Shown here in pieces: positions 3,047 through 28,475 of a DNA stretch of 38,558 nucleotides. The stretch comes from Bacteroidales bacterium (GTDB lineage Bacteria > Bacteroidota > Bacteroidia > Bacteroidales > Muribaculaceae): NCBI GenBank assembly GCA_020860445.1, contig JAJBUH010000166.1, forward strand, positions 1 to 38,558, in the 5' to 3' direction. A model generated the notes under the pieces. The model did not search any database. It was not told the DNA's origin and worked only from the letters and a program-made list of their open reading frames with translations. The translations under genes were made by a program, and so were the position numbers. Positions within the stretch are counted from its first letter, which is position 1. Each line of letters starts with the position of its first letter.

Positions 3047-3054
3047 ATACTAAG

Positions 3055-3150: not shown

Positions 3151-3188
3151 ACCCGGATTTGGTGTATTCAATGAGTATTTTTCATTCT

Positions 3189-4175: not shown

Positions 4176-4261
4176 AGATAAAAAGTTGATGATCTAAAAT
4201 ATGACTTGTTGGAAACCTCAAAGTTTAATTTGTGCAATTATTTTGGTGTCGGATTTCTCCG

Positions 4262-5401: not shown

Positions 5402-5428
5402 GAAATGAAAAATGAAAAATGAAAAATA
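5402..5428. repeat. short ATGAAAA heptamer tract
   Basis: Three to four copies of the 7-bp unit ATGAAAA sit directly before the GH10 start codon (upstream in the minus-strand sense). It is the same repeat type as at 3055-3150, 9200-9224, 9287-9319 and 35206-35310. Confidence 0.75.
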
Positions 5429-6958: not shown

Positions 6959-7054
6959 GGTGTAGGATTTGGAACTTTGTTGGGTTGAGGCAGAGTTATG
7001 GGTTAGGTTTACGGGTGCCAATACTGGGGCTCAGGGGCCTCAGATTTGACACCA

Positions 7055-10611: not shown

Positions 10612-10617
10612 AGCAGC

Positions 10618-12328: not shown

Positions 12329-12359
12329 TGATTTTTTTATATTAGTCGAGAATATATGG

Positions 12360-12440
12360 CTCGGCCACACAGAGGCCGAGAACGGTAGCCCCCATACTGA
12401 TGGGCCGGCTGATTACTCATTACTTATTACTCATTACTTA
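12360..12440. repeat. hairpin plus 14-bp (2 x 7) repeat in the ilvD-ilvB spacer
   Basis: A 7-bp perfect stem CTCGGCC/GGCCGAG with a 7-nt loop spans 12360-12380. The units ACTCATT and ACTTATT alternate at about 12412-12440, another 7-bp-period tract. No gene is seen. Confidence 0.6.
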
Positions 12441-12449
12441 ACAGCCCCC

Positions 12450-14273: not shown

Positions 14274-14323
14274 AATTTGCGATTATAAATTATGTTTTAA
14301 AGCCTATTTACCTATTGTGGCTG

Positions 14324-14355
14324 CAAAATTAAACATTTTTCCACCTTTAACCAAA
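14324..14355 (-). promoter_or_regulatory. ilv operon promoter
   Basis: On the minus strand TTTG (14352-14355), a 20-bp spacer and TAATTTTG (14324-14331) match the Bacteroidota -33/-7 consensus. The predicted transcript start is about 45 nt before the ilvD ATG. Confidence 0.75.
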
Positions 14356-14423
14356 TAATTTTTCAATATTTCGACCATTGGCGAAAAAATTCGCTGAAAA
14401 AGACCGAAAAACCATATAAAGAT

Positions 14424-14453
14424 AGAGGCGCGCCCCCGTGGGGACGCGCCTCT
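14424..14453 (-). terminator. terminator after the outer-membrane protein gene
   Basis: A 9-bp perfect stem AGAGGCGCG/CGCGCCTCT continues into CCCC/GGGG across one mismatch. On the minus strand it is followed by only a weak T tract (ATCTTTATAT). It separates the OMP gene from the ilv promoter. Confidence 0.6.
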
Positions 14454-14480
14454 GGCGTATATTGGTTTTGTTAAGGTGGA

Positions 14481-14999
14481 TCAGAAGTTGTATGCCACGC
14501 CCAGGCTGATGTTGGCGGGATTGATCGAGAATCCGGTGGCGTTGTTGTCGCCCTTGTAGTGGCTGTATGAGAAGAATGTCATCTTGGCCAGCAGCTGCCA
14601 GTTGTCGGTGACCATGTAGCTGATACCCGGGCGCACGAGCACTCCCAGACCGCTCACTCCGTCAAAGTCCTTGACTTTGGTGTAGCTGTAGTACACTTCG
14701 GCCTCGCCAAAGGCGCTGAATGCTCCGCTGTGGTAGAATGAATAGCGGATGTACGGGCCGATGTCGACGGTGTTGACATGCGAGCCACCCGACTTAGCGT
14801 ACTGCTCGTTGAGCTCGACGCCTACGGCGAATGCGTCGCTGATGGTGTACCCGATGGTGGGTGCGAAACTGAATGTGGTATAGCGAGGCGAGTTGGTCTG
14901 CTTTTCGGTGCTGACACCGAGTGTGCCCCCTACGAACACTTGTGCGTTGCAAGCTATCGCGGCGATAGCGCAGATGAGGGCGAGTAATGTCTTTTTCAT
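14481..14999 (-). CDS. small outer-membrane beta-barrel protein
   Basis: Protein of 172 residues with a clear Sec signal (MKKTLLALICAIAAIACNA, probable cleavage before QVFVGG). A series of alternating hydrophobic strands follows, ending in an aromatic C-terminus (SLGVAYNF), as expected for an eight-stranded OmpA/OmpW-like barrel. The family cannot be named more exactly, and the function is unknown (perhaps a small porin or adhesin). It is a single gene, divergent from thrS. A candidate promoter at 15166-15173 would give it a leader of about 160 nt that contains a nested hairpin. Confidence 0.8.
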   Translation of the reverse strand: MKKTLLALICAIAAIACNAQVFVGGTLGVSTEKQTNSPRYTTFSFAPTIGYTISDAFAVGVELNEQYAKSGGSHVNTVDIGPYIRYSFYHSGAFSAFGEAEVYYSYTKVKDFDGVSGLGVLVRPGISYMVTDNWQLLAKMTFFSYSHYKGDNNATGFSINPANISLGVAYNF

Positions 15000-15057
15000 A
15001 AATAAATAGAAGTTAAAAAGTTATGATATGTTACCTTAGAAAATACACCTAAAGGCT

Positions 15058-15100
15058 GCCGGGGAGACTGGCCCGCAAGGGCACCCGCTCCGTATCCGGC
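15058..15100 (-). ncRNA. nested hairpin element in the OMP leader
   Basis: Three nested perfect stems are visible: GCCGG (15058-15062) with CCGGC (15096-15100), GGAG (15063-15066) with CTCC (15088-15091), and GCCC/GGGC (15071-15074 / 15079-15082). The innermost loop reads UUGC on the minus strand and GCAA on the plus. If the OMP promoter is at 15166, the element lies in its 5' untranslated region. It has no U tract, so it is not an ordinary terminator. No known class was recognised. Confidence 0.4.
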
Positions 15101-15165
15101 GGTCATAATTAAAACACTTAAAATCGCACAATGGCTCATGCAATCCAATAAAATTATTTATGGCG

Positions 15166-15173
15166 CAAAAATA
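15166..15173 (-). promoter_or_regulatory. candidate -7 element for the OMP gene
   Basis: The minus strand reads TATTTTTG, matching TAnnTTTG. There is no good -33 element. It is back to back with the thrS promoter. Confidence 0.35.
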
Positions 15174-15185
15174 GTGGGGCGGCGA

Positions 15186-15218
15186 TTGCGATTATTCCAG
15201 AAAAAATTCGTACCTTTG
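15186..15218 (+). promoter_or_regulatory. promoter of the thrS-infC-rpmI-rplT operon
   Basis: TACCTTTG at 15211-15218 matches the -7 consensus exactly. TTG at 15186-15188 lies 22 bp upstream as a possible -33 element. The predicted leader is about 55 nt. Confidence 0.6.
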
Positions 15219-15234
15219 CGGGAAATTTGTTTGG

Positions 15235-15255
15235 TTGCCACGTTGTAGGTGGCAA
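15235..15255 (+). promoter_or_regulatory. thrS leader hairpin
   Basis: A perfect 7-bp stem TTGCCAC/GTGGCAA with the loop GTTGTAG lies between the promoter and the thrS ATG. Only a short non-uniform T-containing stretch follows, so a regulatory site is more likely than a terminator. Control of thrS or the r-protein operon by this stem is inference. Confidence 0.45.
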
Positions 15256-15280
15256 TTTGTGGTAAAACTATAACTAACCA

Positions 15281-17218
15281 ATGATTAACGTTACATTTCC
15301 TGACCGTACGGTCAAACAGTTTGAGGAGGGCGTGACCCCCCTGCAAATCGCAGAGAACATCAGCGCCGGTCTGGCGCGCGACGTACTCGCTGCCACAGTA
15401 AATGAGGAAGAGTGGGACCTGTCCCGCCCTATCCGTGAGGATGCCGAAGTGAAATTCTTCAAGTGGGACGACCCTGAGGGCAAGCACGCCTTCTGGCACA
15501 GCTCGGCCCACCTGCTTGCCGAGGCTCTCCAGGAATTGTACCCTGGGGTGAAATTCGGCATTGGCCCGGCCATCGAGAATGGTTTCTACTACGACATCGA
15601 TCCCGGCGAGCATCAGATTACAGCCGCCGACTTCCCCAAGATTGAAAAGAAGATGCTCGAGCTCGCCCAAGAGAAGCAAGAAATCAAGCGAGCCGACATC
15701 AGCAAGGCCGATGCCCTCAAGCTATTCGGCGACCGAGGCGAGCAATACAAATGCGAGCTGATCTCAGAGCTTGAAGACGGCCATATCACAACATATACCC
15801 AGGGCTCGTTCACCGACCTGTGCCGCGGCCCGCACATCCCCAACACAGCCCCCATCAAGGCTGTCAAGGTGACCTCGCTTGCCGGCGCTTACTGGCGCGG
15901 CGATGAGAAGCGCAACCAGCTGCTGCGCGTCTACGGCATCACCTTCCCCAAGAAGAAGATGCTCGACGAGTATCTGGTGCTGCTCGAAGAGGCCAAGAAG
16001 CGCGACCACCGCAAGCTGGGCAAGGAGATGGAGCTCTTCGCCTTCTCGCAGAATGTCGGCGCCGGCCTGCCCCTGTGGCTGCCCAAGGGCACTGCCCTGC
16101 GTGACCGACTGGAGCAATTCCTGCGCAAGATACAGAAGCAGTACGGCTATCTGCAAGTGATCACCCCGCATATCGGCAACAAGATGCTGTATGTGACCTC
16201 GGGCCACTACGCCAAATACGGCAAGGATTCGTTCCAGCCCATCCACACCCCCGAGGAGGGCGAGGAGTACCTGCTCAAGCCGATGAACTGCCCCCACCAC
16301 TGCGAGATATTCAAGGCATTCCCCCGCAGCTATCGCGAGCTGCCTCTGCGCCTGGCCGAGTTTGGCACAGTATACCGCTATGAGCAGAGCGGCGAGTTGC
16401 ACGGCCTGACCCGCGTGCGCGGCTTTACGCAGGACGATGCCCACATCTTCTGCGCCCCCGAGCAGATCAAGGATGAGTTCCTCAAGGTAATGGACATCAT
16501 CTTCTACATCTTCAAGGCCCTCAAATTTGACAACTTCGAGGCCCAAATCTCGCTGCGCGACCCCAAGAACAAGGAGAAATACATCGGCAGCGATGAGAAT
16601 TGGCACCTCGCCGAATCGGCCATCATAGAGGCTTGCGAGGAGAAAGGCCTCAAGGCTCGCAAAGAGCTGGGCGAAGCCGCCTTCTACGGTCCCAAGCTCG
16701 ACTTCATGGTCAAGGATGCCATCGGTCGCCGCTGGCAGCTCGGCACCATCCAGGTCGACTACAACCTGCCCGAGCGATTCCAGCTCGAATACACCGGAGC
16801 CGACAACCAGAAGCATCGCCCGGTGATGATACACCGCGCCCCCTTCGGCTCGATGGAGCGATTTGTGGCTGTGCTGCTTGAGCACACCGCCGGCAAATTC
16901 CCACTGTGGCTGGCCCCCGACCAAGCCGTGGTGCTCCCCATCAGCGAGAAATACAACGACTACGCCTACCAGGTAGCCAAGGAGCTCAACGCCGCCGACG
17001 TGCGCACCATCGTCGACGACCGCAATGAGAAGATTGGCAAGAAAATCCGCGACAATGAGCTCAAACGCATACCTTATTTGCTCATCGTGGGCGAAAAAGA
17101 AGCGGAAAATGGTGAAGTTTCTGTAAGAAAACAGGGCGAAGGTGATAAAGGTATCGTAAAAATTGCTACCTTTGCAGAAAATTTGACTCAAGAGGTCAAC
17201 AATATGATTAATCAATAA
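15281..17218 (+). CDS. thrS: threonyl-tRNA synthetase
   Basis: Charges tRNA-Thr. The 645-residue protein has the full class II architecture: an N-terminal TGS domain (1-62), an editing domain with the metal-binding [11 protein letters not shown] segment, a catalytic core with the zinc-binding [10 protein letters not shown] and the motif 2 region [13 protein letters not shown], motif 3 at [11 protein letters not shown], and a C-terminal anticodon-binding domain. It heads the operon thrS-infC-rpmI-rplT, the common bacterial order. infC starts 10 bp after its stop. A long open frame on the opposite strand is only a codon-bias shadow. Confidence 0.98.
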
Positions 17219-17227
17219 CCCCACTGA

Positions 17228-17821
17228 ATGGAGAAAAAGCCCTACAACCCCGGTCCGCGCCCGCCGCGACCACAGCAGCCCCAGCGCCGCCCACAACCCA
17301 ACTCTAACAAAGACCCCAATGCTATCAACGAGCATATACGCGCCAAAGAGGTGCGTCTCGTGGGCGACAATGTAGAGCCAGGCATATATTCCATTCACGA
17401 TGCCCTGAAGAAGGCCGAAGAGCTGGAACTCGACTTGGTGGAAATCTCGGCAACGGCCAACCCGCCGGTGTGCAAGATTCTCGACTACCAGAAATACCTG
17501 TACCAACAAAAAAAGAAGCTCAAGGAGCAGAAAGCCAAGTCGGTCAAGGTAGTCATCAAGGAGATCCGCTTCGGCCCCCAGACAGATGAGCACGACTACA
17601 ACTTCAAGCTCAAGCACGCCATGGGATTCCTGCAGGAGGGCTCGAAGGTCAAAGCCTACGTGTTCTTCAAAGGCCGCTCAATCCTCTTCAAGGAGCAAGG
17701 CGAGGTGCTGCTATTGCGCTTTGCCAACGACCTGGAGGAATACGGCAAGGTCGAGCAGATGCCCGTGCTCGAGGGCAAGCGCATGATCATCATGCTCTCG
17801 CCTAAGAAGAAGCAGTCGTAA
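17228..17821 (+). CDS. infC: translation initiation factor IF-3
   Basis: Keeps 30S subunits free and proofreads initiator tRNA. The 197-residue protein has a Bacteroidota-type proline/glutamine-rich N-terminal extension (about 1-28), the N-domain from [14 protein letters not shown], a lysine-rich linker helix ([16 protein letters not shown]) and the C-domain starting [18 protein letters not shown]. The start is ATG. The rare AUU start used for autoregulation in Escherichia coli is not used here, so any feedback must work differently. It is followed by rpmI after 63 bp. Confidence 0.97.
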
Positions 17822-17884
17822 CTCCATCCCCCGGAAAGATCGCATACACGATTATATAAACACGAATAACAAACAACAAACAAA

Positions 17885-18082
17885 ATGCCCAAGATTAAGA
17901 CTAACGCCGGTGCCAAAAAGAGGTTCGCCCTTACCGGCTCAGGAAAGATCAAGAGAAAGCACGCTTACCACAGCCACATTCTCACCAAGAAGACAAAGAA
18001 GCAAAAACGCAACCTCACCCACTCGGGCCTCGTGTCGAGTGCTGATACCAAGAGCGTACGCTCTCTGCTCGGTATGCGTTAA
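17885..18082 (+). CDS. rpmI: 50S ribosomal protein L35
   Basis: Basic 65-residue large-subunit protein beginning [20 protein letters not shown], with the conserved [14 protein letters not shown] segment. Length and position between infC and rplT are standard. The next gene, rplT, starts only after 126 bp. Confidence 0.97.
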
Positions 18083-18208
18083 TCACCGCTTGGTAGATCT
18101 TTAACACCGACTTCGTGATTTTATAATTCATTTATTAACCGAACGGCCAGCCCTAAAGAGCCGCCCCGACACCCGGGAGGCCGCTGCCGATCACAACAAG
18201 CAACTAAA
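18083..18208 (+). promoter_or_regulatory. structured rpmI-rplT spacer, possible r-protein control region
   Basis: This 126-bp spacer is long for genes that are usually close. It contains a GC-rich inverted repeat CGGCC/GGCCG around 18143-18183 with further CCGGG-type pairings inside, ending about 25 nt before the rplT ATG. L20 is a known autoregulator in other bacteria. That it binds here is inference. Confidence 0.3.
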
Positions 18209-18559
18209 ATGCCAAGATCAGTCAATCACGTTGCGTCGCGCGAGCGTCGTAAGAAAATTCTGAAACTCACCCGCGGCTACTTCGGATGCCGCCGAAACGT
18301 GTGGACCGTAGCCAAGAACACTTGGGAGAAAGGTCTCACCTACGCTTATCGCGACCGCAAGGACAAGAAGCACAACTTCCGCGCACTGTGGATTCAGCGT
18401 ATCAACGCTGCCGCACGCCAGGATGGCCTCAACTATTCTCAGCTCATGGGCCTTATCCACAAGGCTGGCATCGAGATGAACCGCAAGGTCCTCGCCGACC
18501 TCGCCCTCAACAATCCCGAGGCTTTCAAGGCAGTGGTGGCTAAAGTGAAGAACGCTTGA
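18209..18559 (+). CDS. rplT: 50S ribosomal protein L20
   Basis: Assembly-initiating large-subunit protein that binds 23S rRNA. The 116-residue product has the typical start [19 protein letters not shown] and the long basic helix [16 protein letters not shown]. The C-terminal domain includes [19 protein letters not shown]. Length is standard. rpsU follows after 68 bp. Confidence 0.98.
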
Positions 18560-18627
18560 TTTTGCAGTCTACACGCCACACAATAGTCAACAAGATTCAG
18601 TAACACCTAACACCAGGATCAAAGCAA

Positions 18628-18819
18628 ATGATTATCGTACAAGTTAAAGAAGGTGAGAATATCGAAAGAGCATTGAAGAAATTCAAGCGCAAATTCGAAA
18701 AGACTGGCATCATCAAAGAGCTTCGCGCTCGCCAGGCCTTCCAGAAGCCCTCAGTCACCAACCGCAAGAAGATGATGAAGGCTATCTACGTGCAGAAGCT
18801 CCGCAACGTGGAAGAGTAA
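18628..18819 (+). CDS. rpsU: 30S ribosomal protein S21
   Basis: Small basic 63-residue protein starting MIIVQVKEGENIERALKKFK, with FEKTGIIKELRARQAFQKPS. In Bacteroidota, S21 is tied to the unusual 30S platform that hides the anti-Shine-Dalgarno sequence, in keeping with the lack of SD sites before most genes here. It ends the r-protein transcript, with a strong terminator 57 bp downstream. Confidence 0.97.
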   Translation: MIIVQVKEGENIERALKKFKRKFEKTGIIKELRARQAFQKPSVTNRKKMMKAIYVQKLRNVEE

Positions 18820-18875
18820 CCCCCAAGACAACCCTCCTCGCCCCGGTCATGTATGGGATCGGAGGCGGATACATC

Positions 18876-18918
18876 AATGACAAAGACCCCCAGGGAGGGG
18901 CCTTTGTCATTTTTTTTG
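18876..18918 (+). terminator. rpsU operon terminator
   Basis: A 10-bp perfect stem AATGACAAAG/CTTTGTCATT is followed by a run of T. The segment just upstream (GTCATGTAT at 18846-18854) can pair with ATAC (18869-18872) and ATGAC (18877-18881), the latter being part of the terminator's left arm, so two alternative structures are possible. Confidence 0.92.
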
Positions 18919-18937
18919 CGTTTTTTTGATGAAAATA

Positions 18938-18969
18938 TTTGGAGAATTGAGGATTTTGGCTTAACTTTG
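18938..18969 (+). promoter_or_regulatory. xerC-hpf promoter
   Basis: TTTG (18938-18941), a 20-bp spacer and TAACTTTG (18962-18969) form an ideal Bacteroidota promoter 33 bp before the recombinase ATG. Confidence 0.75.
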
Positions 18970-19002
18970 GTTGTTACTTAACAAACACCTCGAATCACGC
19001 GT

Positions 19003-19917
19003 ATGCTTATCGATGATTTCATACAATATCTGCGGTGCGAGCTGGCCCTGTCAGCCCTCACTGCTAAGGCGTATGAGAGCGACTTGCGCCAATGGGAGCA
19101 CTTCGCCACCGGCGGTGGCAAGCGCCCTCTGGTGGTGGAGGATACCACCACCGCTGACTTGCGCCAATGGGTGGCGCAGCTCAGCATCGATGGCGTATCG
19201 GCTCGGTCGATCAAGCGCAAGGCTTCGGCCCTGGCTGCCTTTTTCCGCTTCATGATGAAGCGGCACGGTATGGCGCAGAATCCGGCGGCTGACCTGCAGC
19301 TGGCGCGGCCGCGCAAGGTGCTGCCGGTGGTGGTCAGTCCGGCGCAGATGCAGGGGGTGCTCGCCGATGCTCCTGCCGAGGATGACTTCATGGCGGTGCG
19401 CAACCATCTGATCGTGGATATGCTCTACCAGACTGGGGTGCGTGCCTCTGAGCTCGCCACCCTCGAGGATGCCAATGTTAATCTCTCGGCTCGCACCATC
19501 AGGGTGCTGGGCAAGCGCAACAAGGAGCGCGTCATCCCCTTTGGCGAGGGACTCGCCGCATCGATTGAACAGTATCGCGAGCTGAGGGATGCGGTGGCGG
19601 CTCCGCTCCAGGGCAAGGGTTTCTTTGTGGGGCGACATGGGCGTGACATCGATTATCAGACTGTGCGTACTGCGGTGCATGAGGCACTTGACGGCAGGGT
19701 GACTGCCCAGAAGCGCAGCCCCCACGTGTTGCGCCACACCTTTGCCACCGACATGCTCAATGGGGGCGCCGACCTCAACTCGGTCAAGCAGCTGCTTGGC
19801 CACCAATCTTTGGAAACTACACAGATATACACTCATATATCTCTGAGCGAACTAAAACAAAATTACGAACTCGCACACCCGCGTGCACTTAAAAAAGGAG
19901 GACATTATGGAAGTTAG
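19003..19917 (+). CDS. xerC: tyrosine recombinase, XerC/XerD type
   Basis: Site-specific recombinase of 304 residues, probably for chromosome dimer resolution. A SAM-like core-binding N-domain (about 1-90) precedes the catalytic domain. Visible catalytic residues are Arg in YQTGVRASELATL, the HxxR in HVLRHTFATDML, His in LLGHQSLETTQIY, and the nucleophile Tyr in QIYTHIS. Its position between rpsU and hpf is the normal Bacteroidales arrangement, so it is a housekeeping Xer rather than an integrase of a mobile element. It overlaps hpf by 11 nt. Confidence 0.92.
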   Translation: MLIDDFIQYLRCELALSALTAKAYESDLRQWEHFATGGGKRPLVVEDTTTADLRQWVAQLSIDGVSARSIKRKASALAAFFRFMMKRHGMAQNPAADLQLARPRKVLPVVVSPAQMQGVLADAPAEDDFMAVRNHLIVDMLYQTGVRASELATLEDANVNLSARTIRVLGKRNKERVIPFGEGLAASIEQYRELRDAVAAPLQGKGFFVGRHGRDIDYQTVRTAVHEALDGRVTAQKRSPHVLRHTFATDMLNGGADLNSVKQLLGHQSLETTQIYTHISLSELKQNYELAHPRALKKGGHYGS

Positions 19918-20206
19918 AATCCAAGCCATCCATTTTGATGCAAGTGAAAAGCTCGTCGCCTTCATCAACAAGAAGGCTGACCGCTTGGCTCGCCACAACA
20001 CCGCTATCTCGGTGGTGGACGTCACTCTCAAGGTTGTCAAGCCTGAGACTGCCATGAACAAGGAAGCTATAATCAAGGTAAGCAACCCAGCCCACGAGGA
20101 CCTCGTGGCCTCGAAAGTGGCCGATACCTTCGAGGAGGCCGTAGACCTCGCCATCGAAGCCATCGACAAGCAACTCGCCAAAAAGAAAGACCAACAGCGC
20201 AAATAA
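19907..20206 (+). CDS. hpf: ribosome hibernation promoting factor (short HPF/RaiA)
   Basis: Ribosome-binding protein of 99 residues that inactivates ribosomes in stationary phase. It has the S30AE beta-alpha-beta-beta-beta-alpha fold pattern: MEVRIQAIHFDASEKL, then VVDVTLKVVKPETAMNK, then DTFEEAVDLAIEAIDKQL. I start at the ATG at 19907, which is preceded by a strong AGGAGG ribosome-binding site, rare in this window. That site probably allows reinitiation inside the end of xerC, which it overlaps by 11 nt. A perfect hairpin terminator follows. Confidence 0.93.
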   Translation: MEVRIQAIHFDASEKLVAFINKKADRLARHNTAISVVDVTLKVVKPETAMNKEAIIKVSNPAHEDLVASKVADTFEEAVDLAIEAIDKQLAKKKDQQRK

Positions 20207-20234
20207 TCCAGCCAGAGAAAAATTCTCCCCTCAT

Positions 20235-20265
20235 AATCAGCCCGCTCTGCGGGCTGATTTCTTTT
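20235..20265 (+). terminator. hpf terminator
   Basis: An 11-bp perfect stem AATCAGCCCGC/GCGGGCTGATT with a TCT loop, followed by TCTTTT. It marks the boundary between the conserved core and the AT-richer accessory segment. Confidence 0.92.
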
Positions 20266-20290
20266 CCTTATATTGACTTTATAATTTTAA

Positions 20291-20339
20291 TCAAGATGAT
20301 AAGAAATCTAAGGATTTTTTTGTAAATTTGCATGTTGAT
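20291..20339 (+). repeat. duplicated promoter module, copy 1
   Basis: A 49-bp sequence, about 46 positions identical to copy 2 at 21847-21894. It includes a run of T and the -7 element TAAATTTG at 20323-20330. Similarity resumes faintly to the GATTATG at the first ATG downstream (20355). Confidence 0.92.
20323..20330 (+). promoter_or_regulatory. -7 element in module copy 1
   Basis: TAAATTTG matches TAnnTTTG. No TTTG lies 20 bp upstream, so the conserved upstream half of the module may bind a regulator or an alternative sigma factor. The transcript would start near 20337. Confidence 0.55.
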
Positions 20340-20354
20340 TAAAGAGATGCGATT

Positions 20355-20396
20355 ATGGACAATAAATTAACTGATAGAGTAGAATCTAAAGAGTAG
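20355..20396 (+). other. 13-codon mini-ORF after module copy 1
   Basis: The ATG at 20355 occupies the same place relative to the module as the start codon of the AAA/PD-(D/E)XK gene after copy 2 (shared GATTATG). It encodes only 13 residues (MDNKLTDRVESKE) before TAG. It could be a leader peptide or the stub of a lost gene. Confidence 0.3.
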
Positions 20397-20400
20397 TAGA

Positions 20401-20658
20401 ATGAAACGAATAGAGAAAGATATTATAGAATACTTGGTGTGTTGTATCAGCGAATTTGGAAATGTACACAAAATCGCTATGCACCAAGCTTATGAATACT
20501 TGAGTAAATTTGGTGGTTTGGATTTCTTGCGCAAATTTTACAATGTAGAGCACACATTCTCTGTAGAAGATGCTATAGAAGACATAACCATGATATGTCA
20601 TAGAAACGGAGGTGAATTTGATGAAAGTGCTTTACCATGGAAGCAATGTCTCGATTGA
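20401..20658 (+). CDS. DUF3791-family protein, putative antitoxin-like partner
   Basis: Small 85-residue helical protein. The segments HQAYEYLSKFGGLDFLRKFY and VEHTFSVEDAIEDITMICHR, ending in a NGG-type tail, resemble the DUF3791 family common in gut Bacteroidota and Firmicutes. Such genes typically precede a DUF3990 gene, as here: the two frames overlap by 38 nt. A toxin-antitoxin-like role is inference from that pairing and not established by the sequence. The last 15 or so residues overlap the DUF3990 start. Base composition is AT-rich compared with the housekeeping genes upstream. Confidence 0.7.
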   Translation: MKRIEKDIIEYLVCCISEFGNVHKIAMHQAYEYLSKFGGLDFLRKFYNVEHTFSVEDAIEDITMICHRNGGEFDESALPWKQCLD

Positions 20659-20833
20659 GAGAATAGATTTATCTAAATCTCACGTTGCTAAAGATTTTGG
20701 ATGTGGTTTTTATTTGACCGAGGATAAAAAGCAAGCTCTCGATCAAGCTAAGAATACTGTGTCTCGTAATCAGTGGGGCGAACCTACGGTAACAGCTTTT
20801 TTGTTTGATGAGAATCTTCTCACCAATAAATAA
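20621..20833 (+). pseudogene. truncated DUF3990-family gene (ADP-ribosyltransferase-like fold)
   Basis: The reading frame encodes MKVLYHGSNVSIERIDLSKS, followed by KDFGCGFYLTEDKKQALDQA and WGEPTVTAFLFDENLL, the recognisable N-terminal half of DUF3990. This family has been related to ADP-ribosyltransferases, and the YHGS and GFYLT blocks would be the His and Tyr of an H-Y-E type site. The frame ends after about 70 residues, roughly half the family length from memory. Reading on past the stop in any frame gives nothing convincing, so the gene is probably a remnant. A separate 19-codon fragment (20866-20925, GYEYGGTIIEKGAKVVIRN) in the spacer may be other debris. Confidence 0.6.
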
Positions 20834-20936
20834 AAAATAATATTAAGAACTACCATTAAAGATAAGGTTATGAATATGGTGGTACCATTATCGAGAAAGG
20901 AGCTAAAGTGGTCATAAGGAACTAAAAACTAACTAT

Positions 20937-21764
20937 ATGGAAAAAGTGAGAAAGAAATTGATGATTGCGGTTGGGATGGTCTTGGCTGGGACGATGGCTC
21001 AAGGGGCTGAGGCTGGAAGGATGTGGGTGTTTGAGACACCCATCGAAGGCATGTATGAGGTCGAAGACCAGGAGACTGGCGAGGTAGAGGCAGGCGAGAA
21101 GTATGAAGCAGTGTTAAGCTACACTGAGAGTGTGGTCAATGAGGTGACAACCAGTGGTGTCACACAGGTGACTACGGTGTATGAATATGCCGAGAATCCC
21201 ATCAACGATTATCTCAAGGAGATTGGATATCTCACCAGATTTGAGGGAGAGAAGGAATATTGGGGCTCTGGTGGCGCATGGTATCAAGTTATGGATGATG
21301 AGAAGTTTCTCATCGTGGATTTTTCTCTATCCGAGGGCGATACCGTCACCTTTGGATGGGATGAATATACGGTGACCAAGGTAGATTATATCGAGGTTAA
21401 GGGGCGCCAATATAAGCGACTGGAGATATCATCGGTTTATGGCGACAATAGTTATCTCCAGGATATTTGGGTCGAGGGGATCGGCTCGCAGCGCTCGCTC
21501 TACATGGTGCAGTGGCCAGTGCCGACCTATGCCTTGTTTCCCGTAGCCGGCTCGACCCAGCTTATGGAGGTTTGGGAGGATGGCGAACTCATCTTTGAAT
21601 ACGCCGACTTTGAGACCGACAACATTGTCCTTGGTGTCAATAGCGTATCCATCGACTCAGAGACCTCTGATTCTTCAATCTATGATTTGCAAGGCCGTCG
21701 CCTCACCGGCATTCCATCCCATGGCCTGTATATCCAGAATGGCAAAACCTATGTGGCCCAGTGA
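20937..21764 (+). CDS. secreted protein with Bacteroidales C-terminal tail
   Basis: Product of 275 residues with a Sec signal (KLMIAVGMVLAGTMAQGAEA). A beta-rich acidic body follows, with repeated Tyr/Trp and Glu, and then a C-terminal block IYDLQGRRLTG followed by GLYIQNGKTYVAQ. That tail is widespread in secreted Bacteroidales proteins and resembles a shortened type IX secretion sorting tail. The body was not recognised. Surface or secreted location is likely; function unknown. No convincing promoter is seen in the 103-bp spacer before it, so it may be read through from the module at 20291. A strong terminator follows. Confidence 0.75.
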   Translation: MEKVRKKLMIAVGMVLAGTMAQGAEAGRMWVFETPIEGMYEVEDQETGEVEAGEKYEAVLSYTESVVNEVTTSGVTQVTTVYEYAENPINDYLKEIGYLTRFEGEKEYWGSGGAWYQVMDDEKFLIVDFSLSEGDTVTFGWDEYTVTKVDYIEVKGRQYKRLEISSVYGDNSYLQDIWVEGIGSQRSLYMVQWPVPTYALFPVAGSTQLMEVWEDGELIFEYADFETDNIVLGVNSVSIDSETSDSSIYDLQGRRLTGIPSHGLYIQNGKTYVAQ

Positions 21765-21796
21765 ATAACTGCGCCTAAGGATTGAGACAACGCATA

Positions 21797-21846
21797 ATTC
21801 CCACGGATTGCCACTCACAATCCGTGGGAATCTTTGTATTTTCTTT
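21797..21846 (+). terminator. terminator after the secreted-protein gene
   Basis: A 14-bp perfect stem ATTCCCACGGATTG/CAATCCGTGGGAAT with a 7-nt loop, followed by a T-rich tail. It ends exactly where module copy 2 begins. Confidence 0.9.
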
Positions 21847-21894
21847 TCAAGATGATATGAAATCTAAGGATTTTTTGTAAATTTGCATGTGGAT
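21847..21894 (+). repeat. duplicated promoter module, copy 2
   Basis: A 48-bp near-copy of 20291-20339. The differences are one A/T, one fewer T in the T run, and one T/G. It ends about 15 bp before the next start codon and contains TAAATTTG at 21878-21885. Confidence 0.92.
21878..21885 (+). promoter_or_regulatory. -7 element in module copy 2
   Basis: TAAATTTG, giving a predicted transcript start around 21892 and a leader of only about 18 nt before the ATG at 21910. The -33 position lacks the usual TTTG, as in copy 1. Confidence 0.55.
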
Positions 21895-21909
21895 AAATAG
21901 ACAAGGATT

Positions 21910-23544
21910 ATGTTTGAATTTGATGATATGCCGGTGCAATATCCTATCGGTGAACATAATTTTAGAGATTTGCGTGAGCGAGGCTGCCTGTATGTTGATA
22001 AGACACAATATGTAGCCAGGCTACTTGTGCAAGGCAAATTCATATTTCTATCTCGGCCTCGCAGATTTGGCAAGAGCCTGTTGCTGTCTACCATTGAAAG
22101 TTATTTTAAGGGGGAAAAAGAGCTTTTCGAGGGTACATGGATTGGCGAAAGAGAAAAGAATTGGAAAAAATATCCTGTGTTGCATTTTGATATGAGTGGA
22201 TGCAGTGGTAAAAATGCTGATACTATAGAAAAGTTCTTGAACGACAGGATTGCCCGATATGAAACCAGCTATGGAGTGCCTAATAAAGAACACCTTGACG
22301 ACGTGGGCTCTCGATTTAATTCATTAATCCTCAATATTTACGCTGCTACGGGATGTAGAGTGGTCGTTCTGATTGATGAATATGACAAGGGTATTCTGGA
22401 AACATTGGATGAACCAGAGAATAAAAAGATGAATGATGTGTTGCGAGCTTTCTACTCCCAGCCAAAAGCCGCTACAGAAGCCGTGCAGTTCTGCATGGTC
22501 ACAGGGGTAGCGAGATTTGGAAGTTATACCTTATTCTCGGGCCCCAATAACTACTATGATATTTCAATGAATACTCTGTATGCTTCGATTTGTGGCATTA
22601 CGCAATCAGAACTGCTGGGTAACTTCAGTGATGGAATTAAGCTCCTTTCGGAAAAGCGTAAAGAGACTCAAGAAGACACCATAGAGGCATTGCGACAGAA
22701 ATATGATAGTTATCGCTTTACTGAATCTGAGGAAAAAGTATATAATCCATTCAGTGTGCTTTGCGCCTTCGCAGAACAAAGGATGGATAATTTCTGGATT
22801 AAATCAGGAATCAGTAAGGTGTTCGTAAAGTATCTCTCTCAATCTGAATTTGATCTGATCGAACTCCAAAACCTATGGGTGACTCGAGATCGAATGGAGA
22901 AGAAATATTCAAAGGAAGACTCTATTCCATTGCTTTTTCAGACCGGCTACCTCACCATAAAAGATGTAGAGGATTCTAAGCTCTATCGCCTTGGCATCCC
23001 CAATGGGGAAGTGCGCAGCGCCTTAGTAGATCAATTGATCCCCCTCTATACAGGCATCCCTGAGAATGATTTCCCCCTCCGCCTAAAGAGATTACAAGAC
23101 AAGGTAAAGGACGGGGATGTGACTGGGTGGATTGAGGACGTGCGATCCATTATTAGTCGAATTCCTTATAGGCTTTTCGGCCCTACAGATAGCAATAAAG
23201 AGAAAGAAGATGAGAGGCAGGACGCTAAGGCCAAGGCTATAGCCAATTATGAGCGCACATATCATCTATTGGTGCATATCATATTCCAGATGCTCGATTT
23301 AGAGGCCCAAAGCGAAATCGAGATTGCCGGTGGAAGAATCGATATGGTGATGAAAACAAAGAAATTCATCTATGTAATAGAGTTTAAGCTTGATGGAACG
23401 ACCTCAGAAGCCTTGGCTCAGATTGACGAAAAGGGATATCTCATCCCTTGGAGAGCTGATGGACGCAAGGTGTACAAGATAGGAATTGTTTTTTCATCTA
23501 AAGATCATAATATAAAAGATTACGAGTATTTACCTAAAGACTAG
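21910..23544 (+). CDS. AAA-ATPase-like / PD-(D/E)XK nuclease-fold protein (DUF1703 type)
   Basis: Two-domain protein of 544 residues. The N-terminal AAA-ATPase-like domain begins YPIGEHNFRDLRERGCLYVDK. It has a Walker A-like RPRRFGKSLLLST (49-61), a Walker B-like VVLIDEYDKGILE (about 152-164), and the family block VTGVARFGSYTLFSGPNN. The C-terminal PD-(D/E)XK fold (about 474-500) shows GGRIDMV and YVIEFKLDG. Gut Bacteroidales carry many paralogues of this family. Their role is unproven; mobile-element maintenance, DNA repair or defence have all been considered. Transcription probably starts from module copy 2. Codon and base use is AT-richer than in neighbouring core genes, consistent with an accessory origin. 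Confidence 0.9.
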   Translation: MFEFDDMPVQYPIGEHNFRDLRERGCLYVDKTQYVARLLVQGKFIFLSRPRRFGKSLLLSTIESYFKGEKELFEGTWIGEREKNWKKYPVLHFDMSGCSGKNADTIEKFLNDRIARYETSYGVPNKEHLDDVGSRFNSLILNIYAATGCRVVVLIDEYDKGILETLDEPENKKMNDVLRAFYSQPKAATEAVQFCMVTGVARFGSYTLFSGPNNYYDISMNTLYASICGITQSELLGNFSDGIKLLSEKRKETQEDTIEALRQKYDSYRFTESEEKVYNPFSVLCAFAEQRMDNFWIKSGISKVFVKYLSQSEFDLIELQNLWVTRDRMEKKYSKEDSIPLLFQTGYLTIKDVEDSKLYRLGIPNGEVRSALVDQLIPLYTGIPENDFPLRLKRLQDKVKDGDVTGWIEDVRSIISRIPYRLFGPTDSNKEKEDERQDAKAKAIANYERTYHLLVHIIFQMLDLEAQSEIEIAGGRIDMVMKTKKFIYVIEFKLDGTTSEALAQIDEKGYLIPWRADGRKVYKIGIVFSSKDHNIKDYEYLPKD

Positions 23545-23545
23545 T

Positions 23546-23583
23546 AAAATGCCCTCCAAGTCTTTGGCCTGGAGGGCGTTTTA
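23546..23583. terminator. bidirectional terminator between convergent genes
   Basis: AAAA, a stem GCCCTCCA/TGGAGGGC with an 11-nt loop, then TTTT. It has A and T tracts on opposite sides, so it can serve the AAA/PD-(D/E)XK gene (plus) and the hydrolase gene (minus). Confidence 0.88.
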
Positions 23584-23596
23584 TGGGGGGAGGGGG

Positions 23597-24676
23597 TTAG
23601 TTGGAGTACATGGGGGTGAAGGGCTGGACTTTCTCCATTTGGGCGGTGATGTCGCCTACGGCTTCGGGGTGGGCTGTGGTGTCCCAATAGAGGACAGAGG
23701 CGCCGGGGTTGAGGTCGCACTTTGAGAGGTCGACATAGACAAGGCCTAAGTTGGTGACCACGTCAAAATAATAGAGGCGGTCGCGCAGGTTGGAGAAGCT
23801 GCGCCATTGCGTAGAGCTGACATTCGGGTCGCTATCGACAGTGTAGAGGTAGGGTACCGATACGTTGGCCAGGATCGAGCGCACAATAGCTAAGGCAACA
23901 TTGCGGTCAGAGACATGCTGCACATTGTGGTCGAAGAAATAGCCGCGCACAAAGCGGTCGGGACTCTTGACAGTGCCCGGGAGCATGTTGGCTCCGCCAA
24001 CTTTTTGCCAATAGTCGTTGATGGCATTCATCTGCGGCCAGGTGGGGTCGTTGGTCAGCACCGGCATGTCAAATCCCTGATAGATGTTGAGCTGGCCATC
24101 ATGAAACTCAAGCAGGGCCGTGTCGCCCGACGGGTCAGTCACGCCCCAGTGGAGGGTCGAGACAGTGCCGCCATCAAAGGTTGCTCCAGTGATATGGAAA
24201 TCCTGGGCCTTGACCAGGTCGATGACCTCTTGAGTGGTGGCGCACTGGTCAAGCATCCATGCCACGAATACTGCGAGCGACATGTAGGGCTTGTCGGCCT
24301 GCCGCTCGCTGTTGTAGACGGTGCCCTTGCAGAATAGGCCGTTGATGGAGAGGCCCTTCTCGTTTAATCCCTCGGTGATGCCGCTGTTGTAGCTCACGGC
24401 ATAGACCGAGCCGTATTTTGATGTCCATTCAATACACTTGCCCTTGTCGTTGCTTTTCTTCTTCATGCCGCGAGGGTAGACAAAGAGGTTGGTGGGGATG
24501 GGGGTCTTCCAGTCGAGCGAACGCCCCACGATGTGCAGGGCATTGGGGGTCTGAGGCGTGTTGGGCACCTCGGTCTCAGTGGTGTCGCCCTCGTACACCA
24601 CTCGCGAACAGGCATCAGCCTTTTGTATGGCGAAAAATCCGGCGATAGCCAAAGCCAATACGAGCAATCGTTTCAT
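23597..24676 (-). CDS. choloylglycine hydrolase family protein (bile salt hydrolase-like)
   Basis: Ntn-hydrolase of 359 residues that cleaves linear amides, most likely conjugated bile salts, in the periplasm. A signal peptide (1-22, ending ADA) is cut just before Cys23, leaving the catalytic Cys at the N-terminus (CSRVVY). Other active-site positions match the bile salt hydrolase pattern: Arg52 and Asp55 in GRSLDW, Asn105 in EGLNEKGL, Asn209 in LTNDPTW, and Arg241 in SPDRFVR. The overall layout resembles Bacteroides bile salt hydrolases. A penicillin V acylase or N-acyl amino acid substrate cannot be excluded. It is a single gene. No clear -7 element is seen in the 216-bp divergent spacer. 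Confidence 0.88.
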   Translation of the reverse strand: MKRLLVLALAIAGFFAIQKADACSRVVYEGDTTETEVPNTPQTPNALHIVGRSLDWKTPIPTNLFVYPRGMKKKSNDKGKCIEWTSKYGSVYAVSYNSGITEGLNEKGLSINGLFCKGTVYNSERQADKPYMSLAVFVAWMLDQCATTQEVIDLVKAQDFHITGATFDGGTVSTLHWGVTDPSGDTALLEFHDGQLNIYQGFDMPVLTNDPTWPQMNAINDYWQKVGGANMLPGTVKSPDRFVRGYFFDHNVQHVSDRNVALAIVRSILANVSVPYLYTVDSDPNVSSTQWRSFSNLRDRLYYFDVVTNLGLVYVDLSKCDLNPGASVLYWDTTAHPEAVGDITAQMEKVQPFTPMYSN

Positions 24677-24791
24677 AGTGAGATGTGTTTGTGATTAATA
24701 AGAAACGCGTTTTAAAGAAGAACGTTTATGGGGGCTGGTAGGTTCGTTGTGAAGTCTCTCCGAGGCTCAAAGCTTAATTTTAAATTGAACC

Positions 24792-24820
24792 CTTACTTGC
24801 TTACTTGCTTAATCTTGCTT
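24792..24820 (+). repeat. CTTACTTG direct repeats before the PepSY-like gene
   Basis: Two exact CTTACTTG units (24792-24799, 24800-24807) and a third degenerate one (CTTAATCTTG) lie about 75-100 bp before the start codon, in the spacer between the divergent hydrolase and PepSY-like genes. A regulator site is possible. Nothing else is recognised in this 216-bp spacer. Confidence 0.35.
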
Positions 24821-24892
24821 AAAAGAGAAACATTATTAAAGGCTCCATTGTTAATATTACAAATGCAACGAAACCAATACAAAACATTTACG

Positions 24893-25348
24893 ATGAAAAA
24901 ATTATTCGCAATGGCTCTTGTGGCCGTAATGGCTCTCTTTGGAGCCAATCGAGTAGCGGCTGACCAGTGGATCAGTCCAGAAGAAGTACCCGCCACACTG
25001 AAGACTTTCGTAACTCAGAATTTCGGTAAGGATGTGACGATTGTGAAGGCCAGCAAGGATCGCAAGGCTGGAGCGTTTGAATACGATGTTACGCTGTCAA
25101 ACGGCGTTGAGATAGACTATGGAGTAGATCAGCAGTGGACTGAAATCGACGGCGAAGACGCCGGAGTTGACATCCCTGCGGCCATAGTGGGCGAAACCAT
25201 AGTCAGCGACATAAATGTAAGGTACCCTGGTGCCAAAGTGCGCAAGATCGAACGCAAATACCGAGGCTACGAAGTTACGCTCAATAATGGGCGCGAATTG
25301 AAGTACGACAAAAACGGTAAGCTTACGAGAGACAAGCGCGATGATTAA
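24893..25348 (+). CDS. periplasmic PepSY-like domain protein
   Basis: Product of 151 residues with a Sec signal (MKKLFAMALVAVMALFGANRVAA). Two PepSY-like/BLIP-like units follow: WISPEEVPATLKTFVTQNFG to DVTLSNGVEIDYG, and DIPAAIVGETIVSDINVRYP to YEVTLNNGRELKYDKNGKL. Proteins of this type are common in Bacteroidales and often respond to envelope stress or two-component systems; the exact role is unknown. I start at the ATG at 24893; the longer open frame adds only spacer sequence. Its TAA overlaps the TAA of the convergent solute-binding gene by a shared TTAA. Confidence 0.82.
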   Translation: MKKLFAMALVAVMALFGANRVAADQWISPEEVPATLKTFVTQNFGKDVTIVKASKDRKAGAFEYDVTLSNGVEIDYGVDQQWTEIDGEDAGVDIPAAIVGETIVSDINVRYPGAKVRKIERKYRGYEVTLNNGRELKYDKNGKLTRDKRDD

Positions 25349-26148
25349 TCATCGGTTGCTCCCGAGCGTAGAATCCAGGCGTTGAGGCTGTCCCTCAGCG
25401 CCTGGTTGCGCTTGTTGACGGCCCAGGATTGGAATTGGGTGAATGATACTGGGGTGGAAATGTCAATATTGGGATAATCGGGAGCCAACTCTTGGGCTAT
25501 GCGCTCGTTGATGACAGCCTGCTTAACCACGCCAGTGGCGACAAGCATGAAGAGATGCTCGGCCGAACAGTCGGGAACCGCCTCGATGATAATCGAATCG
25601 CCAATCTCGCGCGACAGATTGCGGATGCGCGAAGCGATAGGCGAATTGGCCGTAATCCACACCGTGTCGCCTCCGAGCTGAATCTGCGACTGTATCGGCC
25701 CGCGCCCCGACGAGTCGGCGCGTTGCACCAGAATCTCGCGATCGAGATAGACCGGCTCAGTGGTTAGGAAATACTCCTTGAGGCGAGCAGTGACGGGGAT
25801 GGCGGCCACAACCACATCGTATAGGCCGCTGTCGAGATATTCCATGGCGTGGGCCAGAGGCACAAAGGGATGAAACTTCATAGGCACGCCCTCGCGCTCG
25901 CTGATGCGCCGCAATATCTCATAATCGCGTCCCGACGCGCTGTCGCCCTTGACCGAGTAAATCGAGGGGTTGAGTTGGATGGCAATGTCAAGAGTGTCGC
26001 CATCGGCCTTACTGTATGGGCGCGCAAATGGCGAGTTGACCACCGGATGGGTGCTCTGATACAGCACCACCATAATGGCCACCACTACGAGCAACAGCGC
26101 TCCAAGCGCCCTCAGCTGCGTATATTTCGGTTTTAAAGGCTGTTTCAA
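25345..26148 (-). CDS. membrane-anchored solute-binding-like protein (SBP family 3 / MltF N-domain type)
   Basis: Protein of 267 residues with one N-terminal membrane helix (about 15-30) and a periplasmic type-3 solute-binding fold. It opens with LDIAIQLNPSIYSVKGDSASG and includes YDVVVAAIPVTARLKEYF and the second-lobe segment VWITANSPIASRIRNL. No lytic transglycosylase domain follows, so it is not a full MltF. No ABC transporter genes are nearby; a sensor or envelope role is more likely than transport. The start codon is TTG (26148), and no ATG is available before the membrane helix. It follows the putative porin gene after 165 bp, with a repeat tract between them. Confidence 0.78.
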   Translation of the reverse strand: MKQPLKPKYTQLRALGALLLVVVAIMVVLYQSTHPVVNSPFARPYSKADGDTLDIAIQLNPSIYSVKGDSASGRDYEILRRISEREGVPMKFHPFVPLAHAMEYLDSGLYDVVVAAIPVTARLKEYFLTTEPVYLDREILVQRADSSGRGPIQSQIQLGGDTVWITANSPIASRIRNLSREIGDSIIIEAVPDCSAEHLFMLVATGVVKQAVINERIAQELAPDYPNIDISTPVSFTQFQSWAVNKRNQALRDSLNAWILRSGATDD

Positions 26149-26156
26149 GATAGGGA

Positions 26157-26187
26157 TAAAGTATAAGTTATAAGTGATAAGTTATCG
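26157..26187. repeat. ATAAGTT/ATAAGTG heptamer tract
   Basis: ATAAGTT, ATAAGTG and ATAAGTT units in tandem, related to 5441-5497 (reverse) and 33697-33729. It lies in the porin-SBP spacer, next to the GAA-loop hairpin at 26210. Confidence 0.7.
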
Positions 26188-26209
26188 CTTATGGATTTAT
26201 GGGGACCGC

Positions 26210-26224
26210 CGAGGCGAAGCCTCG
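26210..26224. repeat. GAA-loop hairpin
   Basis: A 6-bp stem CGAGGC/GCCTCG closing GAA, followed by TGGCAC. It is similar to elements at 1456-1470 and 9140-9158. Confidence 0.45.
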
Positions 26225-26313
26225 TGGCACTCAACTGCCTTGCTGGTTTTATGTCCTTATGTCTCTTATGTCCTTAGGGTTTTATGGTATCTTCATGTCG
26301 TCAGGCATGAAGC

Positions 26314-28329
26314 TTAGTTCTGGAAATCTACGGAGAGGCCGAGCTGGAAGCGGCGGGGATTTAGGGGATAGTGGGGGATGGAGAAATAATTGTCGCCGCC
26401 GATCATGCCCTGGTTGACATGCGTCATCATTACGTAGAATCGCGTGCGCCCAAGCTTCATGTTGGCATAAGCCGTCATGAACGGGTAGTTGCCCACCTTC
26501 ATCTCGCGCTGGTTGTAGAATGTAGCCGTTGCCGGCTGATAGCCTGGCGCATAGTAGCTGGTGTAATAGTCGCAATCGATGCCAAACTGCAGATGCAACG
26601 TGGCAATGCGGCATAGAAGATATAGATTGGAATAGACCGCCAGCTTGGGCAAGGGCATAACCGTCTCCTCGGTTGATGTCTGATAGGTAATCTTGTTGTC
26701 CCAGTGCAAGATGCCTACGTGCAGATTCTGGTACAGGTTGGCCGAGAACACTTGCACAGCTCCGGAGTGTTGCTGCGGCAGAGCCGACTCGTTGAAATAG
26801 ATGAGATTCTTGAGCGTCTCAGTGGCTATGTCGATAGTGGTGTTACTCCAAGGGATAGTAATCTGTCCGCCGAGACGCAAGCGCTGCTCCTTGCCGAAAT
26901 TGTTTTGCCAAACAAAATGGTTTGACTTGTATTCTTGCAGCAGATAGGGAGCCGTAGTATTGTTGAGATACCCATAGAGATTGATATCCACAGTGTCGCG
27001 CAGCAATGGGATGCGAGTGTCAATCTCGCCCTTGATCTTGACTTCGCCGATCGCATCACCGAGGATGCCGATTTCGCCGCGAGCCTTGTAATGCAGTATC
27101 GAGCCTTGTTGCTTGGTCAGTTCGCCTCCTACCCAAGCCAGATTCTGGGTCTTGCGATCCAGGATGGTGGTGATATTCGCGGGCAGCGCATCGAGGTTGA
27201 TATCCTCAGGCACAGAGCGGTCGAGAGTGTCGACAGCTTGCTTGAATTTGCGCGTCTCAAAGGTGACGAAAGCGGCGAGGCCGAACTTGGCGTATTTGTT
27301 GAAACCCTCGAGCAGAGCCACGCCCACAGTGTTGGTGAAAGCCGAATAGGAGGTGCGGTCATCGGTCAGGTCAGGGTTGAGGTAGGTATGCTCAAAGAAA
27401 TTACGCATCTCAGTCTTGGAGTTGTCGATAAACGAGTGGCGCGCATTCTTGTACTGCAAGGTCCAGATAAACGATGTCACAGGTATGTACTCGCTATATA
27501 ATACTGAATCGGGATTCTCCTCATCATGGATATCGCGCCAGTAACCCACCTTGTAGCGATTATTGAGGAACAGCTCGCCGCCAACGATGCGAGTGTGGGC
27601 GCTGGTCAGGTTGGTGGGTATTGACTTAGGGCTGATGGTCGACACGCCGCCTTGGAGCACAGCCGGGTCGGTGATGTAGAGGTCGTCGGTGATGCCGCCA
27701 TTCTCCTTGTTGAGCAGGTTGTAGTGGTTCCACGCCCCTTGGAACTCGTATCTGTCGCCGAGATACGACCCGTTGAGGCCCCAAGTCAGGCCCTTGGTGG
27801 CTTGGTATTCGTAGCTGCCCTTTGAGTAGATGTAATCAAGATTGGCGCCAAACTGAGTGCGCTTGTTGAAATTGCCTGAGAATATGGTGGTGAGGCGCTC
27901 TTGGGCGTTGTCGCGACCGCCGCCGGCGTCATAGCTCACCAGGGTCATAGGTATGCGCGTGTTGTAGAAGCGCTGCTTGGCCTGGGTGGGAGTCCAAGCC
28001 ATCTGGGCATCCTGGAGAAAGAAGTTGCTGATCGGGGCTTGCTCCAGGAATAGCATATTCTTGCCCTCGGCTCCGAGATTGCCGGTGCACGCATAAGCAT
28101 AACTCACCTCCGAGGGGATAGCATGCTGGAAATAGTTGTACTCGAGCGTGTCCATAGGCATGGGCTCAATCAAGCCCAGGGGCGCGGTGGCGCGCCAGCA
28201 ATAGGCTTGCTGCACGATTTCGGGCTTTTTCTGCGCCCCCTCGGTGGCTTTTTGGCGCCCTTGCCCCCAAGCGCAGACAGCACACGAGGCAATCAGGATT
28301 AATATGTTGAGAAATGACAGTCGATTCAT
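26314..28329 (-). CDS. putative porin (Bacteroidota putative-porin family)
   Basis: Large outer-membrane barrel of 671 residues. It has a Sec signal (MNRLSFLNILILIASCAVCAWG), a short Gln/Lys-rich linker, and then the many amphipathic strands of the Bacteroidota putative-porin family. The early landmark DTLEYNYFQHAIP and the terminal strand RRFQLGLSVDFQN end in an aromatic-rich motif for BAM insertion. It likely forms a general or solute-selective channel; the substrate is unknown. A -7 element just upstream suggests its own promoter, although it lies downstream of the M16 gene on the same strand. Confidence 0.85.
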   Translation of the reverse strand: MNRLSFLNILILIASCAVCAWGQGRQKATEGAQKKPEIVQQAYCWRATAPLGLIEPMPMDTLEYNYFQHAIPSEVSYAYACTGNLGAEGKNMLFLEQAPISNFFLQDAQMAWTPTQAKQRFYNTRIPMTLVSYDAGGGRDNAQERLTTIFSGNFNKRTQFGANLDYIYSKGSYEYQATKGLTWGLNGSYLGDRYEFQGAWNHYNLLNKENGGITDDLYITDPAVLQGGVSTISPKSIPTNLTSAHTRIVGGELFLNNRYKVGYWRDIHDEENPDSVLYSEYIPVTSFIWTLQYKNARHSFIDNSKTEMRNFFEHTYLNPDLTDDRTSYSAFTNTVGVALLEGFNKYAKFGLAAFVTFETRKFKQAVDTLDRSVPEDINLDALPANITTILDRKTQNLAWVGGELTKQQGSILHYKARGEIGILGDAIGEVKIKGEIDTRIPLLRDTVDINLYGYLNNTTAPYLLQEYKSNHFVWQNNFGKEQRLRLGGQITIPWSNTTIDIATETLKNLIYFNESALPQQHSGAVQVFSANLYQNLHVGILHWDNKITYQTSTEETVMPLPKLAVYSNLYLLCRIATLHLQFGIDCDYYTSYYAPGYQPATATFYNQREMKVGNYPFMTAYANMKLGRTRFYVMMTHVNQGMIGGDNYFSIPHYPLNPRRFQLGLSVDFQN

Positions 28330-28339
28330 AATCTGACTG

Positions 28340-28347
28340 CAAATTTA
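28340..28347 (-). promoter_or_regulatory. -7 element of the putative porin gene
   Basis: The minus strand reads TAAATTTG, 11 bp before the ATG. The leader would be nearly absent and no clear -33 TTTG is seen, so confidence is moderate. Confidence 0.45.
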
Positions 28348-28475
28348 CACATAAATATTGAAATATAGAGAAAAAGAAGTAGCTTACAATAGCCAAAACA
28401 TCATATTTTCGCCAAAAAATAGGGCGTATGTGGAGAAAAATCCCTAATTTTGTGACCGAAAACTCTAATTAATCA

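Follow-up and report, generated by a model that had tools for sequence, protein, structure and literature searches.

A promoter module occurs twice in the window, by which we mean the whole 38,558-nucleotide stretch of Muribaculaceae DNA analysed here (contig JAJBUH010000166.1). With moderate confidence, we regard this repeat as probably the mark of a PDC-M13 cassette that was inserted behind the promoter of an AAA-ATPase gene and was later broken. The 5' neighbours of the locus are genes for a tyrosine recombinase (Phage_integrase domain), which we take to be of the XerC/D type, and for a ribosome hibernation factor; its 3' neighbour, on the opposite strand, belongs to the choloylglycine hydrolase family. 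The features of the locus are given below; the close relative used for comparison is Muribaculaceae bacterium Zag1 (G012, contig NWBJ01000136.1).

20235..20259, + strand: predicted intrinsic terminator between the hibernation-factor (Ribosomal_S30AE) gene and copy 1 (86-nt region with z -4.75; 11-bp stem)
20291..20339, + strand: copy 1 of the promoter module, at the head of the DUF3791 leader
20323..20330, + strand: -7 element TAAATTTG of copy 1, with an ordinary score in the promoter model
20355..20396, + strand: leader open reading frame of 13 codons (MDNKLTDRVESKE), begun by GATTATG; 14 codons in Zag1
20401..20658, + strand: DUF3791 protein, 85 aa, PDC-M13A (Pfam PF12668, E 9.6e-21; PADLOC PDC-M13A, E 1.3e-25)
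20612..20833, + strand: truncated DUF3990 gene, a PDC-M13B stump of 73 aa (Pfam, PADLOC; full-length relative at L060:10581-11075)
20828..21891, + strand: 1,064-bp segment in place of 512 bp of Zag1 (3' half of DUF3990 plus M13C), within which only the module matches Zag1
20937..21764, + strand: orphan open reading frame, 275 aa, N-terminus signal-peptide-like by eye
21797..21831, + strand: predicted strong intrinsic terminator between the orphan frame and copy 2 (57-nt region with z -7.28; 14-bp stem)
21847..21894, + strand: promoter module, copy 2, immediately 5' of the AAA gene
21878..21885, + strand: -7 element TAAATTTG of copy 2, the sole same-strand TAnnTTTG within 20612-21910
21892..21909, + strand: AAA-gene leader, AAATAGACAAGGATT ahead of the ATG, identical in front of the Zag1 orthologue
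21910..23544, + strand: AAA-ATPase_like and PDDEXK_9 protein (DUF1703-type), 544 aa (Pfam, E 1.1e-60 and 2.6e-19)
21910..22044, + strand: putative recombination tract in the AAA gene; these first 135 nt hold 20 of its 43 differences from Zag1

The original prediction described a module recurring with three differences and holding a -7 element in each copy, and both statements prove accurate at exactly 20291-20339 (49 nt) and 21847-21894 (48 nt), with TAAATTTG at 20323 and 21878; the differences between copy 1 and copy 2 are A/T, one extra T in the T-run of copy 1 and T/G. In a whole-genome search the copy-to-copy match extends over 67 nt at 88% identity (E 1.8e-15), far beyond chance. Other parts of the prediction stood only in part. 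The GATTATG after copy 1 does open a reading frame, but this ends after 13 codons and DUF3791 itself begins at 20401; the DUF3791/DUF3990 pair and the secreted protein do lie between the copies, but DUF3990 is a 73-aa stump. The -33 TTTG, whose lack had been taken as a special sign, is indeed absent from both copies as read from the sequence, but it is equally lacking from 74 of 114 sampled TAnnTTTG sites of the same genome.

Bacteroides promoters carry a -33 TTTG element, and in this respect the two copies differ from them, as do those 74 sites. The sampled part of the genome, about 435 kb, supplied 197 upstream regions with these 114 sites; TTTG stands at -33 in 40 of them, and a control window moved to another position has it in 11 of 114. 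The element is no strict feature of promoters in this genome. In a promoter model made from the sampled sites themselves, 38-39 of the 113 other sites score no higher than both module copies. At 20323 and at 21878 a TAnnTTTG lies close upstream of a start codon, as in housekeeping promoters of the Bacteroidales, and TAAATTTG fits the Bacteroides -7 consensus TAnnTTTG as given in the part of PMC4747536 cited here. Judged by its sequence, the module is an ordinary promoter of the housekeeping type, and both copies would work as promoters.

PDC-M13 is a phage-defence candidate of PADLOC and is found among the abundant systems of rumen genomes according to the portion of PMC13356809 used here, in which flanking promoter repeats are not mentioned; DUF3990 is placed in Pfam's ADP-ribosyltransferase clan (PMC7955679, in the part drawn upon). 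The system consists of three adjacent genes, all of which are carried by Zag1, whereas the window retains the first, a truncated second and no third. Its DUF3990 stump covers positions 2-66 of the 152 of the profile, compared with a protein of 164 aa in Zag1. Of 18 columns that are invariant across 12 aligned sequences, the lost second half held 10, so that DUF3791 and DUF3990 of the window are very probably non-functional as a pair. For the orphan gene, the 397 family genomes contain a single weak relative (E up to 1e-15) and plasmids contain none, and no source for it was found in its own genome, 49 genus genomes, the family genomes or plasmids. The AAA gene, with its N-terminal AAA-ATPase_like and C-terminal PDDEXK_9 domains, belongs to the DUF1703 family. 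Its protein has 74 matches in its own genome (itself included), 25 of which span more than 500 of the 544 residues; some are fragmented or contain stops. Expansions of DUF1703 (AAA-ATPase_like plus PDDEXK_9) are known from Cardinium cCpun, where, in the part of PMC6387759 relied on here, the same two domains likewise occur in many divergent paralogs of one genome. The genome analysed here is instead a member of the Muribaculaceae, and the word 'promoter' does not appear in the main text of that paper.

Comparison with Zag1 delimits the rearrangement. The window aligns with it from 10027 to 20827 at 97% and from 21892 to 28478 at 95%, with the 1,064-bp segment in between. The order of Zag1 is a single module, DUF3791, a complete DUF3990 gene, the gene for a 73-aa protein (M13C) and then the AAA-ATPase/PD-(D/E)XK gene. 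PADLOC assigns the three small genes to PDC-M13; the name of DUF3791 rests on Pfam for Zag1 and on PADLOC for the window orthologue. Copy 2 runs as module sequence through 21891 and joins exactly to the Zag1 AAA leader at 21892. A terminator-like hairpin is predicted 5' of each module copy. No TAnnTTTG is present in Zag1 from the start of DUF3990 to the AAA gene, copy 2 supplies the only one in the corresponding part of the window, and the terminator with its 14-bp stem precedes it; the promoter of the AAA gene would therefore differ between the two genomes. In Zag1 the gene probably belongs to an operon read from the promoter of the cassette; in the window it appears to be read from copy 2. 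The clustering of AAA-gene differences in the first 135 nt, together with the greater divergence of the DUF3990 stump from Zag1 beyond about 20680, shows both genes to be mosaic against Zag1 and points to recombination.

We favour the following course of events, the order of which we infer from these comparisons. A PDC-M13 cassette (DUF3791-DUF3990-M13C, toxin-antitoxin/defence-like) would have been inserted just downstream of the promoter that serves the AAA/PDDEXK gene, leaving this promoter present twice. Copy 2 would be the native promoter of the AAA gene and, together with the leader AAATAGACAAGGATT, would give a picture of the uninterrupted promoter-AAA junction; copy 1 would be the same promoter, captured by the cassette and now reading into it. 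Later recombination, either here or in a source lineage, would have truncated DUF3990, removed M13C and brought the orphan secreted-like gene and its terminator into the gap, making the AAA gene dependent on copy 2. The uninterrupted state is deduced from copy 2 alone because no cassette-free site turned up among 28 other HPF loci (L133-L160, some of these stretches being short and 16 further HPF hits lying outside the sample), near which DUF3791, DUF3990, M13C and the AAA gene are all absent within the stretch examined. As Zag1 has no second copy, that copy would have been lost there, or the two alleles arose differently. Compared pairwise, the three modules differ at 3, 3 and 2 positions, which gives no age order of the copies; two variable sites group copy 2 with Zag1, one unites both copies of the window and one joins copy 1 to Zag1.

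Promoter repeats also occur around other PDC-M13 cassettes. A DUF3990 profile search was positive in 183 of 397 family genomes, and relatives were found on 69 plasmid and 7 phage records. The PDC-M13 sample comprised 108 distinct places among the matches listed; 105 entered the test of immediate flanks (repeat score at least 15) after three with short or N-bearing flanks had been dropped, and 106 had enough flank for a test with wider windows. Controls for the former were 503 genes of 600-1400 bp from two genomes, that of the window (G000) and Zag1, and 30 neighbouring genes, compared with PDC-M13 loci from many genomes. Immediate-flank repeats were found at 9 of 105 units, leaving 96 without, versus 8 of 503 control genes (Fisher P 0.0007, uncorrected for relatedness of loci); none occurred among 4200 mismatched flank pairs or 30 neighbour genes. 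Repeats bearing a promoter flanked 3 of 105 units versus none of 503 controls (P 0.005, likewise uncorrected for relatedness). The window itself counts as a miss in this test because its copy 2 sits 1 kb away. With wider windows (repeat score at least 19) the enrichment was weaker than in immediate flanks: 13 of 106 places, the window included, versus 22 of 400 random positions in the same two genomes, and, for promoter-bearing repeats, 4 of 106, again with the window, versus 3 of 400, these three coming from two sites.

In the three promoter-flanked loci the cassette alone lies between direct repeats of a neighbour's promoter, as it does in the window with an added segment. The copies agree in 38 of 38 nt at L209/L344, with the second before yqeY-serS, and in 24 of 24 nt at L250, with the second before a menD-like gene (a thiamine-pyrophosphate enzyme that we read as MenD); at L244 they are 107 nt long and the second precedes an M24 peptidase gene. 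PADLOC was applied to all three cassette genes of L250 and L244 and to DUF3990 of L344, a locus at which tblastn identified the two small genes (L165). All three loci, like the window, come from a single genus, which contributes 30 of the 105 places. At L209, at L250 and in the window the left repeat extends 5 to 9 nt beyond the -7 TTTG, and at L244 it continues into the start of the next gene. A further unit, L222 (G149:C19), is surrounded by a near-identical repeat of about 245 nt (oriented positions 1506-1751 and 2817-3061) without a TAnnTTTG match. The recurrence passes the strict test of immediate flanks, on few cases, with imperfect controls and with relatedness uncorrected.

Transposons and islands are inserted with flanking duplications of their target, and PDC-M13 cassettes resemble them in adjoining direct repeats. 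They differ in that the repeats vary from 19 to about 250 nt and that three small genes take up the unit, whose median length is 927 bp; repeats of such variable length argue against one transposase that duplicates a target of set size. Nor does the alignment of the two genomes support a general rule of promoter duplication at insertions: 167 kb of it contain 13 length differences of at least 250 bp, that of the window among them, and just one of the other 12 has an overlap of more than 5 nt (27 nt at window positions 3087/5403, in heptamer arrays). The 2.3-kb segment concerned (3088-5402, with frames of 328 and 379 aa) is missing at the aligned place of Zag1 and is flanked by arrays in which a 7-bp unit resembling AATGAAA recurs. 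A second segment of 1.36 kb (5639-6999), within the region of a 508-aa frame, also has no counterpart at the aligned place.

About 435 kb of the genome contain three promoter-bearing repeat pairs, in the window and on contigs C2 and C274. On C2 (L126:1163 and 2860) the repeat agrees in 41 of 41 nt and stands before two adjacent AAA/PDDEXK paralogs; the match to Zag1 ends at C2 6191, more than 3 kb ahead of it. On C274 (L125:3724 and 8457) a 56-nt repeat (96%) encloses IrrE-like, DUF4411, nucleotidyltransferase and HEPN genes, its second copy lying 5' of a GDP-mannose 4,6-dehydratase gene. Flanking repeats exceeded the shuffle threshold at 4 of 28 AAA paralogs of this genome and at none of 18 HPF controls; the four are the C2 pair, two long repeats and one low-complexity run.

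Among the alternatives, replacement by a foreign allele survives best, although we consider it distinctly less probable than insertion of a cassette at this place. The segment up to about 22044, comprising the orphan gene, the terminator, the promoter copy and the 5' end of the AAA gene, would have recombined in from another strain whose AAA gene had kept the same promoter directly in front, and the two copies would be two alleles of one promoter, joined without any duplication at an insertion. The clustered differences at the start of the AAA gene and the divergence of DUF3990 from about 20680 on are in keeping with it, as is the distance between copies 1 and 2, which about equals that of either from the Zag1 copy; on the other hand, no donor was found in the same genome or among 49 genus genomes (its own included, best eight candidates at most per genome in one search), and the promoter repeats around other cassettes are left unexplained. 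Such a replacement could also be the last step of the cassette insertion that we favour. Whether the promoter was copied at entry or brought in later as the allele of another strain, the repeat looks like a trace of cassette traffic and not like a regulatory code. A footprint of cassette insertion by recombination had been one of the original suggestions; it gains some support from the comparison with Zag1 and from the repeats at other PDC-M13 cassettes.

It is unlikely that copy 1 was simply copied forward to a place before the AAA gene after the split from Zag1 and was kept as it restored expression once the operon had been cut. The single module of Zag1 does sit in the place of copy 1, copy 2 supplies a promoter exactly at the operon cut, and the window copies agree against Zag1 at one site; yet copy 2 agrees with Zag1 against copy 1 at two places (the T-run and T/G) and its join to the AAA leader is exact.

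Among the matches listed, the full module was found at this one locus only. The search of the genome and the Muribaculaceae for the 48-mer, proposed originally as a check for a regulon, returned two copies in the genome of the window (4,143,878 bases, 281 contigs), where the next-best matches cover 24 and 32 nt (E 0.005), and one in Zag1, in the place of copy 1, where the best further match is the 21-nt AAA leader contained in the query. Some match at E up to 0.001 was obtained in 48 of 397 family genomes, these two included, and no third genome had a full-length module among the matches listed, with the best two candidates per genome scored; those outside the two genomes span 20 to 54 of the 81 positions in the query and fall for the most part around the -7 box. 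Upstream of 28 further AAA paralogs the 48-mer is absent (the best alignment scores 15, where 48 is the maximum), and 25 of these carry their own TAnnTTTG close to the start. The reading as a regulon signal, in which the roughly 30 bp upstream of the -7 element would be the operator through which accessory genes respond to an activator or a special sigma factor, is thus very improbable: the conservation of these bp between the copies and their lack of a -33 TTTG speak for it, but so few copies, a promoter of ordinary type that shares this lack with most sampled sites, and the missing block before the AAA paralogs led us to reject both the shared signal and the special activator or sigma site. 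This rejection and the local comparison with Zag1 are the well-supported parts of our sequence-based account.

The literature on DUF3990/DUF3791, PDC-M13, AAA/PDDEXK and promoter capture or duplication yielded no title or abstract on promoter repeats around such cassettes. The arrangement suggests how a defence-like cassette may join a gene without silencing it, namely by having the same promoter on each side. A further idea, which we hold to be rather unlikely, is that a process so far unrecognised brings PDC-M13 cassettes, and perhaps toxin-antitoxin genes of other kinds, into genomes by aiming at active promoters close to where transcription starts and making a copy of the promoter; if this were true, the newcomer would gain a working local promoter and the host gene would retain its own. 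Should promoter-bounded cassettes recur, pairs of promoter repeats would serve as a mark by which small accessory cassettes can be found, and pairs of close strains would make the mechanism testable.
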